Positions 6,355 to 34,806 of a stretch of DNA of 43,866 nucleotides are shown piece by piece. Made by a program: the position numbers and the translations under genes. How positions within the stretch are numbered: position 1 is the stretch's first letter; every line of letters starts with the position of its first letter. The notes under the pieces are model-generated. The model searched no databases and was not told the origin of the DNA. It worked only from the letters and a program-made list of their open reading frames with translations. Location: contig JACPPO010000129.1 in NCBI GenBank assembly GCA_016190945.1, positions 1 through 43,866 of the forward strand. The letters are read 5' to 3'. This DNA is from Acidobacteriota bacterium. Lineage in GTDB: Bacteria > Acidobacteriota > Vicinamibacteria > Vicinamibacterales > UBA2999.

Positions 6355-7173
6355 CTATTCGATCTTGACGAGGTCGACGTCGAACACCAGCATGCCGCGC
6401 GGCGAGCCAGGTTCGCCCTTGTAGGCCAGGTCCTGCGGAATCCAGAAGCGCGTCCTCTCACCCTCCACCATGAGCCGCATGCCTTCGGTCCACCCCCGGA
6501 TCACGTCGCCGAGTGCAAGCGTCGCCGGCTTGCCCCGCGCGACGGAGCTGTCGAACATCTTTCCATCCGTCGTCCAACCGGTGTAATGGACGGTGACCCG
6601 GTCCGAGGAAGTCGGCTTGCGCGTTCCTGTCCCGGGTTTGAGGACCCTGTAGGCGAGCCCGGAGGCCATGCGCGTCGCGTCCGCCGGCGGCGCCGCGACA
6701 TCAGGAGGCGCCACCGTGGGAGCACGGCGGGTGTCGAGCAGCTCAATGTCGAAGACGACGGTGCCGGCGGGTCGGCCGGCCTGCCCGTTGTAGGCAAGCT
6801 TCTGAGGCAGCCAGCACCGCCGGGTTTCGCCGACCGTCATCAGCTGCACGCACTCGCGCCATCCCACGAGCGACCGGTTCAATGGAAACATCGACGGCGT
6901 GCCGCGACTCCGCGAGCTGTCGACCATCTGCCCATCAGTCGTCCATGCCGTGTAGTGAACCGTGACGACGTCGGTCGGCGCAGGTTTGTCCGGGCTTGTC
7001 CCCGGGGCGATCGTTCGCGAGGCGAGCCCAGACGCCGTCGTGACCGCATCTGGCGGCGGCGCCGAAACGTCAGCCGGCGCAGCCTGGGTCCCCGGTGTAA
7101 CTGGCGCCTGGGCCGCCAGGGCCGCAGCGGCAACGGCCACGGCAACAGCCATCGCAAGCGTTTTCTGCTTCAT
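6355..7173 (-). CDS. Secreted protein with two tandem FKBP-type PPIase domains
   Basis: Start MKQKTLAMAVAVAVAAAALAAQA (signal peptide); two FKBP repeats: DVVTVHYTAWTTDGQMVDSS... and DRVTVHYTGWTTDGKMFDSS... Confidence 0.88.
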   Translation of the reverse strand: MKQKTLAMAVAVAVAAAALAAQAPVTPGTQAAPADVSAPPPDAVTTASGLASRTIAPGTSPDKPAPTDVVTVHYTAWTTDGQMVDSSRSRGTPSMFPLNRSLVGWRECVQLMTVGETRRCWLPQKLAYNGQAGRPAGTVVFDIELLDTRRAPTVAPPDVAAPPADATRMASGLAYRVLKPGTGTRKPTSSDRVTVHYTGWTTDGKMFDSSVARGKPATLALGDVIRGWTEGMRLMVEGERTRFWIPQDLAYKGEPGSPRGMLVFDVDLVKIE

Positions 7174-7230
7174 CTCATTCCTATCGTACCCCAGCGTCCG
7201 CGGGGGCGGGGACGTCATCCACCCCTCGAC

Positions 7231-7258
7231 GGAACACCGAGGCACCGAGACACCGAGG
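7231..7258. repeat. Left inverted repeat flanking the GxxExxY gene
   Basis: GGAACACCGAGGCACCGAGACACCGAGG; reverse complement of 7633..7659 with one mismatch over 27 bp. Confidence 0.9.
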
Positions 7259-7260
7259 CT

Positions 7261-7632
7261 CTAAATGGCGAGTCTTCGAATACTGGTGCGGAGCAGGGCG
7301 CTATTGAAGTTCATCAGCAACCCAACCGGCAGCTGTAACACCCGCATGTAGGCCAGCGTTTGCGCTTGATGAACTGCGTGCAGGGCTTCCACACTCTTAA
7401 CCTCGATGAGAACGCGATCGGAGACTACAAGGTCGGGACGATACTCGCTGATCAGATGCCCTTTATACAGAACGGGTACTCTGACCTGGCGTTTGTACGC
7501 GAGTTTCGCTTCATTGAGTCCGACGCACAGCGCCTCCTCGTAAGTGGCTTCCAGTAAGCCAGGGCCGAGATGGCGATGCACCTCAATTGCGCATCCGATG
7601 ATCAATCGAGTAAGAGGATCGTGTTCGTACAT
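7261..7632 (-). CDS. GxxExxY family protein (PDDEXK-like)
   Basis: MYEHDPLTRLIIGCAIEVHRHLGPGLLEATYEEALCVGL...YRPDLVVSDRVLIEVKSVEAL; the 7686 start in the ORF track reads through the repeat. Confidence 0.9.
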   Translation of the reverse strand: MYEHDPLTRLIIGCAIEVHRHLGPGLLEATYEEALCVGLNEAKLAYKRQVRVPVLYKGHLISEYRPDLVVSDRVLIEVKSVEALHAVHQAQTLAYMRVLQLPVGLLMNFNSALLRTSIRRLAI

Positions 7633-7659
7633 CTCGGTGCCTCGGTGCCTCGGTGTTCC
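7633..7659. repeat. Right inverted repeat flanking the GxxExxY gene
   Basis: CTCGGTGCCTCGGTGCCTCGGTGTTCC, abutting the start codon (ATG at 7632..7630). Confidence 0.9.
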
Positions 7660-7663
7660 GGGA

Positions 7664-10600
7664 TCAGTGAAGGTTGCGGAATTCAAGCAATGCCCTCGCC
7701 CTCACCTCCGCCGCGATAAGCGGGAACGTCGCAAGGACATGCTCGAGGTCTCGGTCGGTCAATCCGTAGAGCTGCGCAACGAGCGCCTGAAGTACCGCGT
7801 ACTGCGGCATCTCCTCCACGGGTCCGCGGCCGCCGGCGAGCACGCGCGACAATGCCGCAAGCCTTCTGAACGCGGGGTCGTTTCCGCGGACGACGGGCAC
7901 GAGCAGTCGCGACACGAGGGTAACCGTGACGTGCGTATTCACGCGCAGGCGTATGAGGTAGTTCGCGACCAAGCTGTTGAGCAGCGCACACAGGACATGC
8001 TGCGCATCGCCAGGCAGGGGCGTCTTGAGGCAGAACAGGGTATGGGTCGTGACGGCGCGCGGAGGGATTATCGCCGCAATCAAAGTGAGACGGTTCGTCG
8101 CGCTGGCGATGTCTCGGTACGCGAGCCTGGCGCGACGCGCGATGTGCCTCGTTGTGCCACCAGGATGTAACTCGTACCTGCATCCCTCTATCGACACTCG
8201 AAATGGGTCGATCTGCTTCCCTTCGAGCACCGGCCGCGCACCCGCAGCGCCGGTGAAGGGTGCGAAGGCGCCGCTGTCGTCGGTGGCGTTCAGCTCGCGC
8301 CCAAACTGGACGTTCCATCCGTCCTCGGCCCCGAGCCAACGCAGTCGGGCGGCGATCTTCTCCAGAATCCGGAGGTCTCGTTCGGTGACCATCTCCGGAA
8401 TCCCGAGATCGTCGCCGCCGGAGAGCCGGGCAAGCAGCGGCCGCGTGACGACCAGTGGAGGATGATCGCCGTCCGGAGTGTCGAGGTCCTCGGTCCGGGT
8501 CACCCCGAAGCGGCAGGCGATGTCGCGCGTCGGCCGGCCGGCCGTGGCGGTCAACAGGACGAACCGCAGGCTCCGGTGAATCGGAAAGATTCCGCCGCGA
8601 TTATCCAGGCCGGTGACGGAGTCGACATCCGCCCTGTCGAAGAGATGCCGCCGCAGAGGCGCGGGCCCGGCGTCGGTCATGACCCCCGACGGCAGCACCA
8701 GCCCGATGCGCCCACCGGATCGCGCCAGTTGGAGCGCGCGTTCGACGAAGAGCTGGTACCGGTTGACGTGCGATCGGCTTTCGATGCGGTAGACGCCGGC
8801 CTCGCGAGCGAAGCCGGTGACGCGGCGTGCCTCGACCTTGCGGTCCGCCCGAACGTTTGCCTCGCCGCTGTCGCCACGAACCATGTCCCACGGCGGGTTG
8901 CCGAGGATCGCGTCGAACCCGGCATCCGCGAGCCGTTCGCCGCGCTCGTCGGAGAAGATCTCCGGGAACGCCAGCGGCCAGTGCATGAAACGGTAGCGCG
9001 CCGCCAGTGCAGCCGAATGTTCGAGAAAACGATCGGTCGATCGTTCGGGCAGCGTCGTGCGGCTGCTTAGGAGACGGTCGGAGAGTTCCCTGAACAGCGC
9101 GCTCCCGGGCGGCGCACCGTCCTCCCAGAACCAGCCGGCGCACCACAGATCCAGCACCGCCGACCAGCGGCCGAGTGGCGACTGCGGCGCATGGAGCGCT
9201 GCGAGCGCCTTCTCCTTTGCGCTGACTATTGCCGCGGAATCGTCCGGATCGCGGGCAAGCCGCAGACGCGTCCGCACGGCGTTCTCAAGGACCGGCGTCA
9301 CGTCAACGCCCGCGAAGAGCGGCGACGCCTCCGGTCGTCGTCGGCGAAGACCTCCGCCGGTCGGTTGCCGCAGCGCGTCGTCCAGGGTAGCGCCGATGAG
9401 ACTGTCGCCGGCCACGAGGTGATGATCGAGAAAAGTGAGCGGCTTGTCCGACGCGAGGCTGGCGAGCCAGAGCGACAGTCGCGCGAGCTGGACGGCCATC
9501 GGATTCAGGTCCACCCCGAAGAGGCACCCCTGCGCGATCTCCCGCCGTAGCGCCGCACGGTCCGCCGCCGTGACGTCGCCGTGGTGCCAGCGGCCCTCGC
9601 GGATGAGGCTTTCTTCCGTGGCTGACGCGAGATAGCGACAGGCACCGACGAGGAACGCCCCGCTACCCATCGCCGGATCCAGAATTCGCAGGCGCAGGAT
9701 CTCCTCCGCGCGGCGGCCGCGGACGAGCGGTTCGAGCGTCCGCCGCACCAGGAATGCGGTGACTGCGCGCGGTGTGTAGAAGGTGCCGCTCGACCGCCTG
9801 ACGTCGCGCGTCCGGCTCAAGCCCGACACGCTCCCGGCGGCGGCAGGCTCGTACTCCAGGACTCGCTCGTACACCGCGCCGAGCTGTTCTACGTCCAGGT
9901 CGCGGTAAGAAATTCGAACGCGTCCGGCTGCCGGCCCGCGGGTCGTGCCGACCGCCATCATCACCGCGCCCATGACCGCGTCCTCGATCCGCGTTCGATC
10001 GAAGGCGGCCGAATGCGCCGGAGCGAACAAGCGGCCATTGAACGCCGTCACTTCGAGCTCTCCCGCTGAACAGCCTGCATGGGCGAGCCGCGAGATCGCC
10101 AGAACCGCGTGCCACACGCCCCGATACCGACGCCCGGTGATTAGCGTGGCGACGATGGCCTCGATGCTGTAGCGCTCGCGGTAGACCGGATGCCACATCG
10201 GGACCAGTCCTCGTGCTTCCGCAAACAGCAGAAAGAGCACGCGATACAGCACCGTCAGCGACTGCTCGAACAAGACGAAGGGCGCTTGTTCGGGACGTGC
10301 TGATGAGAGCGCGGTGAGCAGGAATCCAAGAGCGTCGAGCACGCCGTCTCCAAGCGCTTTGCATACGGAGACGCCATGCCGGACCGACAGGACCGTCGCG
10401 CGATCCAGGAGCGGTGGGCGCGCGGCCATCGCCTCGGCCCGAATCACGCTCCAGAAGACCGTCCGGGCCGGCGCTTCCAGGGAAAGCAGCGTCAGGTCGA
10501 ACTCGAGATAGTGCCGCGACCACGTATGGTGCGCGTCGACAACGCGGAGAGCCGCGCCGTTGCAGCAGAAACACCACCGCGCATCGGCTCGGACGCCGTC

Positions 10601-10942
10601 GAGCACCAAGGCGCGCCAGCCTCGGTCGAGGGGATCGTTCCAGGGCACAATCACGACCGGCACCGAGGCGCCGGACGAAGCCACGGCCTCCAGGACGACC
10701 CGCGTACCCTCATCGGTCCGCCGACCGATTCCGAATCCAAGAATCTTCAGAAGCGGGATAACCCCGGCGTCGGCGATGGCGCGGATGCTGGAGGCGGGAC
10801 CGAGGGTCGACTCCCGTCGATCCGACCAGGCGTCGAGCGCGCGAACAACGGCCGCCGGCGGCTCCGCCGCGCCGGGCAGGGTATGGAGCGCGGTCTCCGC
10901 GAAGGTCGCGCTGATGAGACGCCCGCGAACGCCGGCGATCAT
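7664..10942 (-). CDS. Eco57I-like class I SAM-dependent DNA adenine methyltransferase / type IIG-like protein
   Basis: FYTPRAVTAFLVRRTLEPLV, ILDPAMGSGAFLVGACRYLA, FGVDLNPMAVQLARLSLWLASL, ILGNPPWDMVRGD (motif IV NPPW); TaqI-like C-terminal specificity region. ATG at 10942 lies 1 nt after the upstream stop codon. Confidence 0.88.
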   Translation of the reverse strand: MIAGVRGRLISATFAETALHTLPGAAEPPAAVVRALDAWSDRRESTLGPASSIRAIADAGVIPLLKILGFGIGRRTDEGTRVVLEAVASSGASVPVVIVPWNDPLDRGWRALVLDGVRADARWCFCCNGAALRVVDAHHTWSRHYLEFDLTLLSLEAPARTVFWSVIRAEAMAARPPLLDRATVLSVRHGVSVCKALGDGVLDALGFLLTALSSARPEQAPFVLFEQSLTVLYRVLFLLFAEARGLVPMWHPVYRERYSIEAIVATLITGRRYRGVWHAVLAISRLAHAGCSAGELEVTAFNGRLFAPAHSAAFDRTRIEDAVMGAVMMAVGTTRGPAAGRVRISYRDLDVEQLGAVYERVLEYEPAAAGSVSGLSRTRDVRRSSGTFYTPRAVTAFLVRRTLEPLVRGRRAEEILRLRILDPAMGSGAFLVGACRYLASATEESLIREGRWHHGDVTAADRAALRREIAQGCLFGVDLNPMAVQLARLSLWLASLASDKPLTFLDHHLVAGDSLIGATLDDALRQPTGGGLRRRRPEASPLFAGVDVTPVLENAVRTRLRLARDPDDSAAIVSAKEKALAALHAPQSPLGRWSAVLDLWCAGWFWEDGAPPGSALFRELSDRLLSSRTTLPERSTDRFLEHSAALAARYRFMHWPLAFPEIFSDERGERLADAGFDAILGNPPWDMVRGDSGEANVRADRKVEARRVTGFAREAGVYRIESRSHVNRYQLFVERALQLARSGGRIGLVLPSGVMTDAGPAPLRRHLFDRADVDSVTGLDNRGGIFPIHRSLRFVLLTATAGRPTRDIACRFGVTRTEDLDTPDGDHPPLVVTRPLLARLSGGDDLGIPEMVTERDLRILEKIAARLRWLGAEDGWNVQFGRELNATDDSGAFAPFTGAAGARPVLEGKQIDPFRVSIEGCRYELHPGGTTRHIARRARLAYRDIASATNRLTLIAAIIPPRAVTTHTLFCLKTPLPGDAQHVLCALLNSLVANYLIRLRVNTHVTVTLVSRLLVPVVRGNDPAFRRLAALSRVLAGGRGPVEEMPQYAVLQALVAQLYGLTDRDLEHVLATFPLIAAEVRARALLEFRNLH

Positions 10943-10943
10943 G

Positions 10944-13391
10944 TCACTCGACGACCGCGGCAAATGCCAAGTCGCACGCGTCGCAACGCACGTCCCGGTC
11001 GGCGGCAAGCTCGCGGAGGCGGAAGGCGGAGCGGGATAGCGCCTCGTCAAGCAGCGCAGCCTGTGAAGCCGCCAGCCGCTCGTTGCGTCGGTCGAACAGC
11101 GCGCCCTGCAAGAGACCGACGGACAAGCGCGCGTGACGGTCGCGCATGGCCGCCATCAGATCGCGTTCGCGGCGCATCCACAGATTCAGTGGCTGGCGAA
11201 GCGTATCGCGGAGTTCGCCTAGTGTCTCGCCCTGCGCGACGCCGATCGCATCCTCAACGGCCGGATGGTGAGGGTTCAGAACCAGGCGAATGCGGCTGCG
11301 GCATCGTCCTGGTGCCTCTGCGAGGCTCGCCACAAGAGGCACCAGCGATTCCCAGACGACGCGGCCCGATGCGTTCGTGACGGTCATCCTGAATGCCCAG
11401 AAACACTGCCGCCCGGCAACGGTGCCGCGACGAGATCGAAGCCTTGCGATGACGGGCCGGGTTTCCACGTTCCAGTTGCCGCTGGCGTCGGTACTGGCAC
11501 TGCGCCACCCTCGGCTCCTGGCGAGGCGCTTCGCCTCTTCGCAGGCTTCGCGGCGAAGGTCGGCCGGCACGGTGCCGCCGGGAGCAGCGGGCCGCGCATC
11601 ATCGATATCGGGAAGCGGGTGGTTGCCCAGCGCCGATTCGGCGACGCGCCGCTCGTCGGGAAGTGGTCCGCAGAGGCCAATCGCGTCTCGTATCCGGCTG
11701 ATGCGGCAGGCCAGCCGCGCGAGGGTCGACTCCTCGCAGGTGCCCGCCGCCACGAGATGGATCGCATGGACTTTCCGAGCCTGCCCTATACGGTCTACTC
11801 GTCCGGCCCTCTGGTCCAGGCGCAGCGGCGTCCACGGTAACTCGAGATTGATGACGAACCGGCAGCGGTGGTGGAGGTTTAATCCTTCGCTGGCGGCATC
11901 GGTGGCCAGGAGCAGGCGGGCGCCGCCCTCCGTGAAGCGACGCAGCGCGTCGGCTCGCTCGCGTGATGCCAACCCGCCGTGCAGCTGCACGGCATCGACA
12001 TCTTCGAGCGCGAGGGCGAGACGCTGAAGCGTGTCCCGATACTCCGTGAAGATGATTGCTGGTTCCGTCGTTCTCGAGATCAGGCGGCGCAGGATCGCCA
12101 GCTTGCTTTCGGCGCCGGCGGCAACGCGTGCCAGATCGAGAAGGTGGTGCAGGCGGACCCGCTCCTCGCCGGCGTCACTCAATCCCGGCGATCGAAGCGA
12201 CGCTTCCGGCTCCTCATCGTCAACAGCCGTCTCGGCAAACGGCAGGTCGATTTGCGGAGCAAGGGCCGGTCCCGCATCCGCCAATAGGCCGATTCGCCGC
12301 TCTACGGAGCGTGCCAGCGATTCGGCGCTGCTGCAGGCGCGGCGGGCCAGCACCGACATCGCGAGCCGGGCGCCCGAGGCACCCGCACCGCTCGGTTGGT
12401 TCCACGCGAGCCGCGCGTAGGCCGTCAGCGCGGCGTGCATGGCGGCTTCGGCGGGCGTCGGCCGCACGCGCAGGAGCGTCGTGCGACGGGAGGTCGCCAT
12501 GCCGACATCGGTCCGTGTGCGCCGGAATACCAGCAACGGATGGGCGCCGTTCAGGTTTCCGACATTGCACAGCCTGCCAAACGCCTCGTCATCGCCCGAA
12601 TGCGGCGTTGCCGTCAGCAGCACGAGCGCACGCGCACGGTTTCCGACGGCGGTGGCGGCGGAGGCGCGATCGGACCTCCCCGCCAGGTTATGCGCCTCAT
12701 CGAAGACAACCAGGTCCCACGTGAGGGCTTCGAGAGACCGCATGACTTCAGGCCGCTTGATGTAGTCGATCGAGGTGATGACGACCCGCTGCACGGACCA
12801 CGGGTTCACTCCCGCGGGTAAGTGCGCTGTGAGACGGGCAACGCCTGCAGCGTCGAGCACTTCCGCGTCGAGGCGAAAACGGCTTCGCAGCTCATCGCGC
12901 CATTGGTCGCGGAGGGCCGCCGGCGAGATCACCAATGCCCGCGCATCCGGCTGGCGCAGGAGGACCTCGGCGATCATGAGGCCGGCCTGTACCGTCTTGC
13001 CCAGGCCCACTGCGTCGGCGATAAGGAACCGGCAGCCGTCGCCGCGCGCCAATGAGAGCGCAGGCTCGAGCTGAAACGGGATGAGCGTCAGATCCGCGCG
13101 GGCGGCGGCGCGCAGCGACGTCCAGGACGGGGTGGCTTCCGCCAGCACGCGTCTGGCGACATGACGCCAGCGGCGCGGGCTGACGACACGCGGTGCCGAG
13201 GACGCGTTGAGACGATCGATCGCCTCGAATGGGAGGAGAAACCCGGCCTGGCTGTTTCGGTTCGTGACGTCGCAGCCAGCCGCCTCAACAAGCGCCGCAC
13301 TGCCGTAGCTGACGTGGCGGACGATTCGCCATTTCTCATCGCGGATGCGGACGATGTCTCCGGAGCGGAACGGAGTGGTATTCGCGGCCAC
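10944..13391 (-). CDS. SNF2/RapA-type DEAD/DEAH helicase
   Basis: FQLEPALSLARGDGCRFLIADAVGLGKTVQAGLMIAEVLL (Walker A variant), VVFDEAHNLAG (DEAH), LLTATPHSGDDEAF, LLLATDAASEGLNLHHRCRFVINLELPWTPLRLDQRAGRVDRIGQ. Confidence 0.9.
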   Translation of the reverse strand: MAANTTPFRSGDIVRIRDEKWRIVRHVSYGSAALVEAAGCDVTNRNSQAGFLLPFEAIDRLNASSAPRVVSPRRWRHVARRVLAEATPSWTSLRAAARADLTLIPFQLEPALSLARGDGCRFLIADAVGLGKTVQAGLMIAEVLLRQPDARALVISPAALRDQWRDELRSRFRLDAEVLDAAGVARLTAHLPAGVNPWSVQRVVITSIDYIKRPEVMRSLEALTWDLVVFDEAHNLAGRSDRASAATAVGNRARALVLLTATPHSGDDEAFGRLCNVGNLNGAHPLLVFRRTRTDVGMATSRRTTLLRVRPTPAEAAMHAALTAYARLAWNQPSGAGASGARLAMSVLARRACSSAESLARSVERRIGLLADAGPALAPQIDLPFAETAVDDEEPEASLRSPGLSDAGEERVRLHHLLDLARVAAGAESKLAILRRLISRTTEPAIIFTEYRDTLQRLALALEDVDAVQLHGGLASRERADALRRFTEGGARLLLATDAASEGLNLHHRCRFVINLELPWTPLRLDQRAGRVDRIGQARKVHAIHLVAAGTCEESTLARLACRISRIRDAIGLCGPLPDERRVAESALGNHPLPDIDDARPAAPGGTVPADLRREACEEAKRLARSRGWRSASTDASGNWNVETRPVIARLRSRRGTVAGRQCFWAFRMTVTNASGRVVWESLVPLVASLAEAPGRCRSRIRLVLNPHHPAVEDAIGVAQGETLGELRDTLRQPLNLWMRRERDLMAAMRDRHARLSVGLLQGALFDRRNERLAASQAALLDEALSRSAFRLRELAADRDVRCDACDLAFAAVVE

Positions 13392-34714: not shown

Positions 34715-34751
34715 CTCAGTACGTAATGCTAGACCGCTTTCATCTCCACAG

Positions 34752-34783
34752 GCCACTCCGTGCCTCTGTGCCTCCGTGGCTCG
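34752..34783. repeat. Solo copy of a CACCGAG/CACGGAG-type repeat
   Basis: Plus GCCACTCCGTGCCTCTGTGCCTCCGTGGCTCG; minus-strand form CCACGGAGGCACAGAGGCACGGAGTGG resembles the repeats around the GxxExxY gene. Confidence 0.65.
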
Positions 34784-34806
34784 TGACGGCGAAGAGGGTC
34801 GCGCTT

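Follow-up and report, generated by a model that had tools for sequence, protein, structure and literature searches.

The window analysed here, a stretch of 43,866 nucleotides, carries on its minus strand a gene for a 123-amino-acid GxxExxY (PDDEXK_3) protein (7261..7632; ATG start codon at 7632-7630, stop codon at 7263-7261), recognized by its TIGR04256 and PF13366 matches and its conserved catalytic residues. The gene is enclosed by a pair of inverted arms. On its 5' side an arm of three CACCGAG units (7633..7660, minus strand, letters CGGAACACCGAGGCACCGAGGCACCGAG) directly abuts the start codon, and on its 3' side, 3 nt beyond the stop codon, lies the counterpart (7230..7257, plus strand, CGGAACACCGAGGCACCGAGACACCGAG). 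The arms are 28 nt long, 96% complementary and 375 nt apart, with 3+3 exact CACCGAG units, bearing out the preliminary description of a GxxExxY gene held between tandem-unit CACCGAG arms with little else inside. CACCGAG occurs 22 times in the whole window against 10 expected, a count reached in 0 of 100 shuffles, and a gene-less half copy of the repeat family is present at 34748..34790 (minus strand, CACTCCGTGCCTCTGTGCCTCCGTGGCTCGTG; outer limits approximate). When the transcript was folded the arms paired as a single long stem around the gene (z −6.8). An Rfam search of 6800-8000 returned no match.

In other members of the repeat family, conservation extends past the CAC array into CACGGGCCAC or CGGAACAC. 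Together with the stop codon of the neighbouring methyltransferase, which lies within the right end, this indicates that the window unit probably spans about 7218-7672, slightly beyond the arms. The repeats had been named correctly as the ends, but the outer limits proposed for them, giving about 429 bp, probably fall short. The probable outer end beyond the 5'-side arm (7661..7672, minus strand, TTCACTGATCC), whose boundary was placed by comparison, holds the methyltransferase stop codon; the putative end beyond the 3'-side arm (7218..7229, plus strand, TCCACCCCTCGA) is a weaker match to the TTCAC... end of other copies. The unit is intergenic, with no 23S rRNA gene, and is flanked on the minus strand by genes for an Eco57I-type DNA methyltransferase (DrmMI/type IIG-like; 7664..11050) and an FKBP-type peptidyl-prolyl isomerase (6355..7173), the latter our anchor for comparing occupied and empty sites. 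The best PADLOC match of the methyltransferase is DrmMI (DISARM) or type IIG, and it is found upstream of FKBP in several genera; in genomes G000, G010 and G022 its stop codon falls within the repeat-unit end.

In profile searches the window protein matched TIGR04256 (E 1.8e-40) and PF13366 (E 4.4e-40), passing both curated cut-offs (138 bits versus 35 and 137 bits versus 22). Conservation among 135 sequences is 97-100% at H23, E32, Y35, D71, E81-x-K83, Q95 and Y99 (the numbering starts at the RGTEMYEHD encoded in the arm), and the D, ExK and QxxxY residues are all present in the window protein. The PF13366 match and the near-invariant PD-(D/E)XK residues agree with the PDDEXK-like fold ascribed to it beforehand. 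An AlphaFold model (pLDDT 93.6) had as its nearest PDB folds lambda exonuclease entries and other QxxxY-type PD-(D/E)XK enzymes (E 0.003, TM about 0.5); judged by its E-value this is a weak match, based chiefly on the common active-site pattern. A sequence search of the PDB detected no relative. The conserved D, ExK and QxxxY residues are held in common with lambda exonuclease, RecB and Cas4-type nucleases, but the GxxExxY protein is about half their size and is enclosed in its own repeat unit. With its predicted nuclease site intact, the protein looks active. A phage origin was unsupported: 50,697 phage records gave 0 matches, and matches in plasmids were limited to 8, all below 60% identity. 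In the algal virus CpV-BQ1 (Chrysochromulina parva virus) a protein annotated as GxxExxY occurs among replication and repair genes (PMC12085832).

For a wider view of this architecture, each gene was given the score of the strongest local inverted repeat pairing its 200-nt upstream flank with its 200-nt downstream flank, with a threshold of at least 14. The threshold was reached at 80 of 135 GxxExxY loci (59%) from many phyla, compared with 4 of 736 displaced windows (0.5%) of the same spacing shifted along the same loci. One of the scan patterns, GTEMYEHD, covers arm codons and could favour arm-bearing loci, but relatives' loci taken from the HMM search only gave the same rate (38/60 versus 1/324 displaced). 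Other genes within the same loci reached the threshold in 4 of 252 cases (1.6%), and one of those four is a second GxxExxY gene and another a TIGR02436 gene. About 40% of GxxExxY loci have no recognizable arms. The majority of well-formed arms consist of CACNGAG or CACGAAG in tandem, with an end consensus of cACggGCCAC.GAG or aACCACGAAG, and at 38 of 82 loci a start codon and the last unit are no more than 12 nt apart. One locus, L059 (G046, a relative of the same order), is identical to L094 in the gene region. Swapping arms between loci lowered the median score from 16 to 8, so the two arms of one element resemble each other more than the common motif alone would make them. Consistent with this, the variable fourth base of CACNGAG agreed from arm to arm at 0.80 compared with 0.47 when shuffled or swapped (p 5e-5).

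As a control family we had chosen TIGR02436, whose small four-helix proteins are encoded in 23S rRNA intervening sequences (IVS). Its loci proved to be enclosed too (25/31 scoring at least 14 versus 1/177 displaced), but by a different kind of array: the TIGR02436 arms are tandem 7-nt units (AGGGAAC, CGGGAGT, AGTAGGC and others; a 7-nt period in 16 of 23), and CACNRAG-type units make up 59 of 70 well-formed GxxExxY arm pairs and 0 of 23 TIGR02436 pairs. At L195-L224 and L052 the inverted 7-nt arrays around TIGR02436 genes differ from genome to genome, a system parallel to the GxxExxY units. Genomes with more copies of one family tend to have more of the other (Spearman 0.59 for copy number). 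The Coxiella IVS, 428 nt long, is closed by a 28-bp terminal stem and contains heptamers in tandem and a single small ORF; RNase III excises it (PMC4990558). The GxxExxY unit resembles such IVSs in its length of ~430 nt, terminal inverted repeats of ~28 bp, tandem short units and single small ORF. However, IVSs sit in 23S rRNA and encode S23p (TIGR02436), whereas the GxxExxY unit is intergenic and encodes a PD-(D/E)XK nuclease-family protein; the window gene is not a member of S23p.

Comparison of orthologous sites showed that the unit comes and goes. The unit lies between methyltransferase and FKBP in three genera (G000, G010 and G022). In G003 the same methyltransferase (68% identity) stops about 10-15 nt short of FKBP and the unit is absent, and in many relatives FKBP is directly preceded by a gene that we take from its sequence to be odhB (E2 acyltransferase). 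Occupied and empty orthologous sites therefore exist, as for mobile elements. Among the three genera that hold the unit its letters vary, with mixtures of CACCGAG, CACAGAG and CACGGAG, and the arms largely still match.

A second informative site is a gap in Verrucomicrobia between what we presume, from sequence, to be recN and a convergent transporter gene. Five genomes carry the unit there in forward orientation (L225, L228 and L240; degraded in L235 and L241) and three in inverted orientation (L227 and L244; partial in L243). Two others (L237 and L250) have inverted remnants beside another palindrome, and in the remaining genomes the gap holds nothing but palindromes of other families, or hardly anything. 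In L237 and L250 the scar is a single arm with the opening codons of a GxxExxY gene in inverted orientation, adjoining a different palindrome. L227 and L240 (genomes G100 and G116), which are sisters in a recN tree (support 100/99), carry opposite orientations, and the tree forces at least two changes of the orientation label. Elsewhere, L109 and L120 have collinear flanks with the unit alone reversed and the breakpoints within the arms, L099 and L142 show an apparent second in-place inversion, and the elements of the pairs L118/L126 and L122/L148 are 85-87% identical in unrelated surroundings. The unit is thus present, absent or flipped as a block, including inversion in place, which could be ordinary recombination between the arms. 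We observed no excess of direct repeats indicating a target-site duplication at the ends of 57 elements (3.56 versus 3.39 ± 0.12), whose boundaries are fuzzy enough that a short duplication may have escaped notice. Near-identical copies were sought within genomes holding 7-8 copies and none was found, so no recent jump is documented. The recN-transporter gap (L226, L233-L254) is itself a hot spot, where unrelated palindrome families (CGCGAATCACGCGAATGAACGCGAATG, GTAGAGGCAGCCGTGCCGGCTGC, GGTAGGGGCGGTTC and CCCACGAAACACACGAAT) seemingly replace each other among related genomes.

The enclosed architecture, the specificity of the unit type, the matching of the arms, the block behaviour and the conserved active site are all direct observations. 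At the same locus we saw no GxxExxY orthologue that lacks the repeats, and the tie between the repeats and GxxExxY genes is strong. The occupied, empty and inverted orthologous sites and the association across phyla support the view of a cassette bounded by repeats. The word 'nonautonomous' in the preliminary description is probably wrong where the copy holds the gene; it is the many palindromes lacking a gene that look like the non-autonomous class.

Around a dozen such palindromes, of ~50-75 bp, with two to three units facing two to three across a short loop, were found in the window's genome (1.96 Mb, 78% complete), which has a single GxxExxY gene. Outside the units they end in CACGGGCCAC, or in CGGAACAC with CACCGAG units. 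The CTTCACTGAGCCGGAACACCGAGG end of the gene-less palindrome on C154 matches the 7661..7672 end in the window, and this gene-less copy and the gene-bearing copy have the CTTCACTGA..CGGAACACCGAGG end in common. The single array CACNGAGNCACNGAG had 37 matches in this genome versus 26 for the reversed control, only mildly above it; the pairing of arrays is what stands out. Among 99 relatives, strict palindromes of CACNGAG type occurred in 14 genomes and of CACGAAG type in 23, with 0 for the reversed control. A GxxExxY gene was present in 23 of the 31 relatives carrying palindromes and in 17 of the 68 non-carriers (Fisher p 6e-6); the genomes are related and partly draft MAGs, so these counts are not independent, but collapsing them to genus level still gave p 2e-4. 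Palindromes were borne by 8 genomes without GxxExxY; in G075, 37 CACGAAG palindrome matches accompanied a GxxExxY search without a hit. TIGR02436 genes were present in 30 of the 31 carriers, so the co-occurrence is not specific to GxxExxY, and palindrome carriage correlates more with TIGR02436 (30/31) than with GxxExxY (23/31). Y1_Tnp genes were found in 26 of the 31, a weak association (p 0.036; genus level 0.15), and PF01797 (Y1_Tnp) had no hit in the window's genome at its 78% completeness. CACGAAG arms lay in genomes with CACGAAG palindromes in 8 of 10 cases (background 23/99) and CACNGAG arms in genomes with CACNGAG palindromes in 4 of 8 (background 14/99), a per-genome match of arm type to palindrome type that is mildly supportive only.

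The closest known counterpart is the RAYT/REP/REPIN system. RAYTs are Y1 enzymes (PF01797) associated with REPs that have a GT(A/G)G head (PMC2817692, PMC3116915), and orthologous RAYTs keep their site, whereas the repeats on their flanks change but stay paired (PMC2817692). The GxxExxY unit resembles this system in having one small gene, two inverted ends, many gene-less palindromes and co-changing repeats, and its gene likewise lies between inverted repeats that are also found alone in the genome. It differs in that the only gene in the window unit is PF13366, not PF01797, and encodes a PD-(D/E)XK nuclease and not a Y1/HUH enzyme; its arms are tandem arrays of 8-9-nt units, each arm being half a palindrome where a REP is a whole one, and the GT(A/G)G head is absent from its ends. 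MITEs and other IS-derived non-autonomous elements resemble the unit in short length, terminal inverted repeats and intergenic position, but the unit has no identified parental IS and no detected target-site duplication, and the window copy codes for a conserved enzyme. The multicopy sequences of Geobacter metallireducens (PMC2700814), with CCYTC-based class-4 sites and GGACCGG heptamer elements, were compared as well and belong to a different family.

The RAYT-like anatomy, combined with an enzyme that is not Y1/HUH, the missing head motif and the lack of a PF01797 hit, led us to propose a minimal mobile unit in the REP/RAYT style in which a resident PD-(D/E)XK nuclease takes the place of the Y1 transposase and the gene-less palindromes are non-autonomous partners. 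We give this reading an even chance. Under such a scheme the unit ends, as inverted arrays of 8-9-nt units, could form hairpins in single-stranded DNA or RNA. A nuclease of lambda-exonuclease/RecB-like character might recognize the hairpin ends and trim or nick them, for example on the lagging-strand template, and this action would lead to excision, re-insertion or inversion of the unit, while the nuclease would act in trans on gene-less palindromes that have these ends. That the protein moves or maintains the repeats, the chemistry involved and the service in trans are all inferred. A broader version is possible but more doubtful: a widespread class, found in many bacterial phyla, in which no known transposase but a stand-alone lambda-exonuclease-like PD-(D/E)XK nuclease both spreads and maintains, in cis and in trans, the short-tandem-array palindromes that belong to it, with the S23p/IVS heptamer elements as a parallel branch using a different protein.

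The palindromes could instead be an independent REP-like family spread by some other activity, such as a Y1/RAYT transposase, replication slippage or recombination, with GxxExxY riding along. The 8 of 31 carrier genomes without GxxExxY, the fact that units of one kind house both GxxExxY and TIGR02436, which are unrelated protein families, and the Y1_Tnp genes in 26 of 31 carriers fit such a passenger. We nevertheless consider it rather unlikely: the window's genome (78% complete) has a dozen or more palindromes without a Y1_Tnp hit, Y1_Tnp is weakly associated with carriage (p 0.036; 0.15 at genus level), and unit type tracks protein family (59/70 versus 0/23), unexpected for a neutral passenger. 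A role at the RNA level, in which the arms form a stem for RNase III excision or a bidirectional terminator that renders insertion harmless, the protein having a separate role, would suit the long stem that encloses the ORF (z −6.8), the position of insertions at the ends of genes or between convergent ones, and the same plan with RNase III excision in the Coxiella IVS (PMC4990558). It accounts for tolerance of the unit, but not for its spread, its flipping or the retention of a nuclease with an intact active site, and we judge it improbable.

The in-place inversions at the recN site, and apparently in L099/L142, are what an invertible switch would produce, with the arms as recombination sites and gene orientation setting an on or off state. 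The inversions, however, lie between species and not within a population, the unit holds no invertase gene, and whole units are also lost and replaced by other palindromes, making a switch very unlikely. Short palindromes beside genes are common, so that chance or an ordinary terminator hairpin unrelated to the gene might come to mind; the 59% enclosure rate against 0.5-1.6% in controls and the matched letters of the arms exclude this reading for practical purposes.

GxxExxY proteins are common in bacterial genomes, and CACNGAG-type repeats occur in many genomes with no explanation found; linking the two gives both a testable role. In the open-access literature searched we found no paper on the CACCGAG-type repeat or its link to GxxExxY: matches to the repeat letters were two unrelated animal studies only, and 'GxxExxY' appeared in two papers, in each as a passing annotation. 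One-gene palindromic mobile units are already known, and we rate the PD-(D/E)XK-bearing variant as new. The recurrence of the repeat-enclosed nuclease gene in many phyla, and the gain, loss and flipping of the whole unit in related genomes, suggest a little-noticed kind of minimal mobile element. If the proposal of a unit with a resident nuclease is true, this nuclease family would join the enzymes able to spread palindromic repeats, and the S23p/IVS puzzle would be placed in a wider class of array-ended, one-gene units.

At L097 (about 1068-1536) inverted arrays of CACAGAG type surround an ORF that reads like, and is presumably, the NADH dehydrogenase 24-kDa (NuoE) subunit; palindromes can thus bracket an ordinary gene too.
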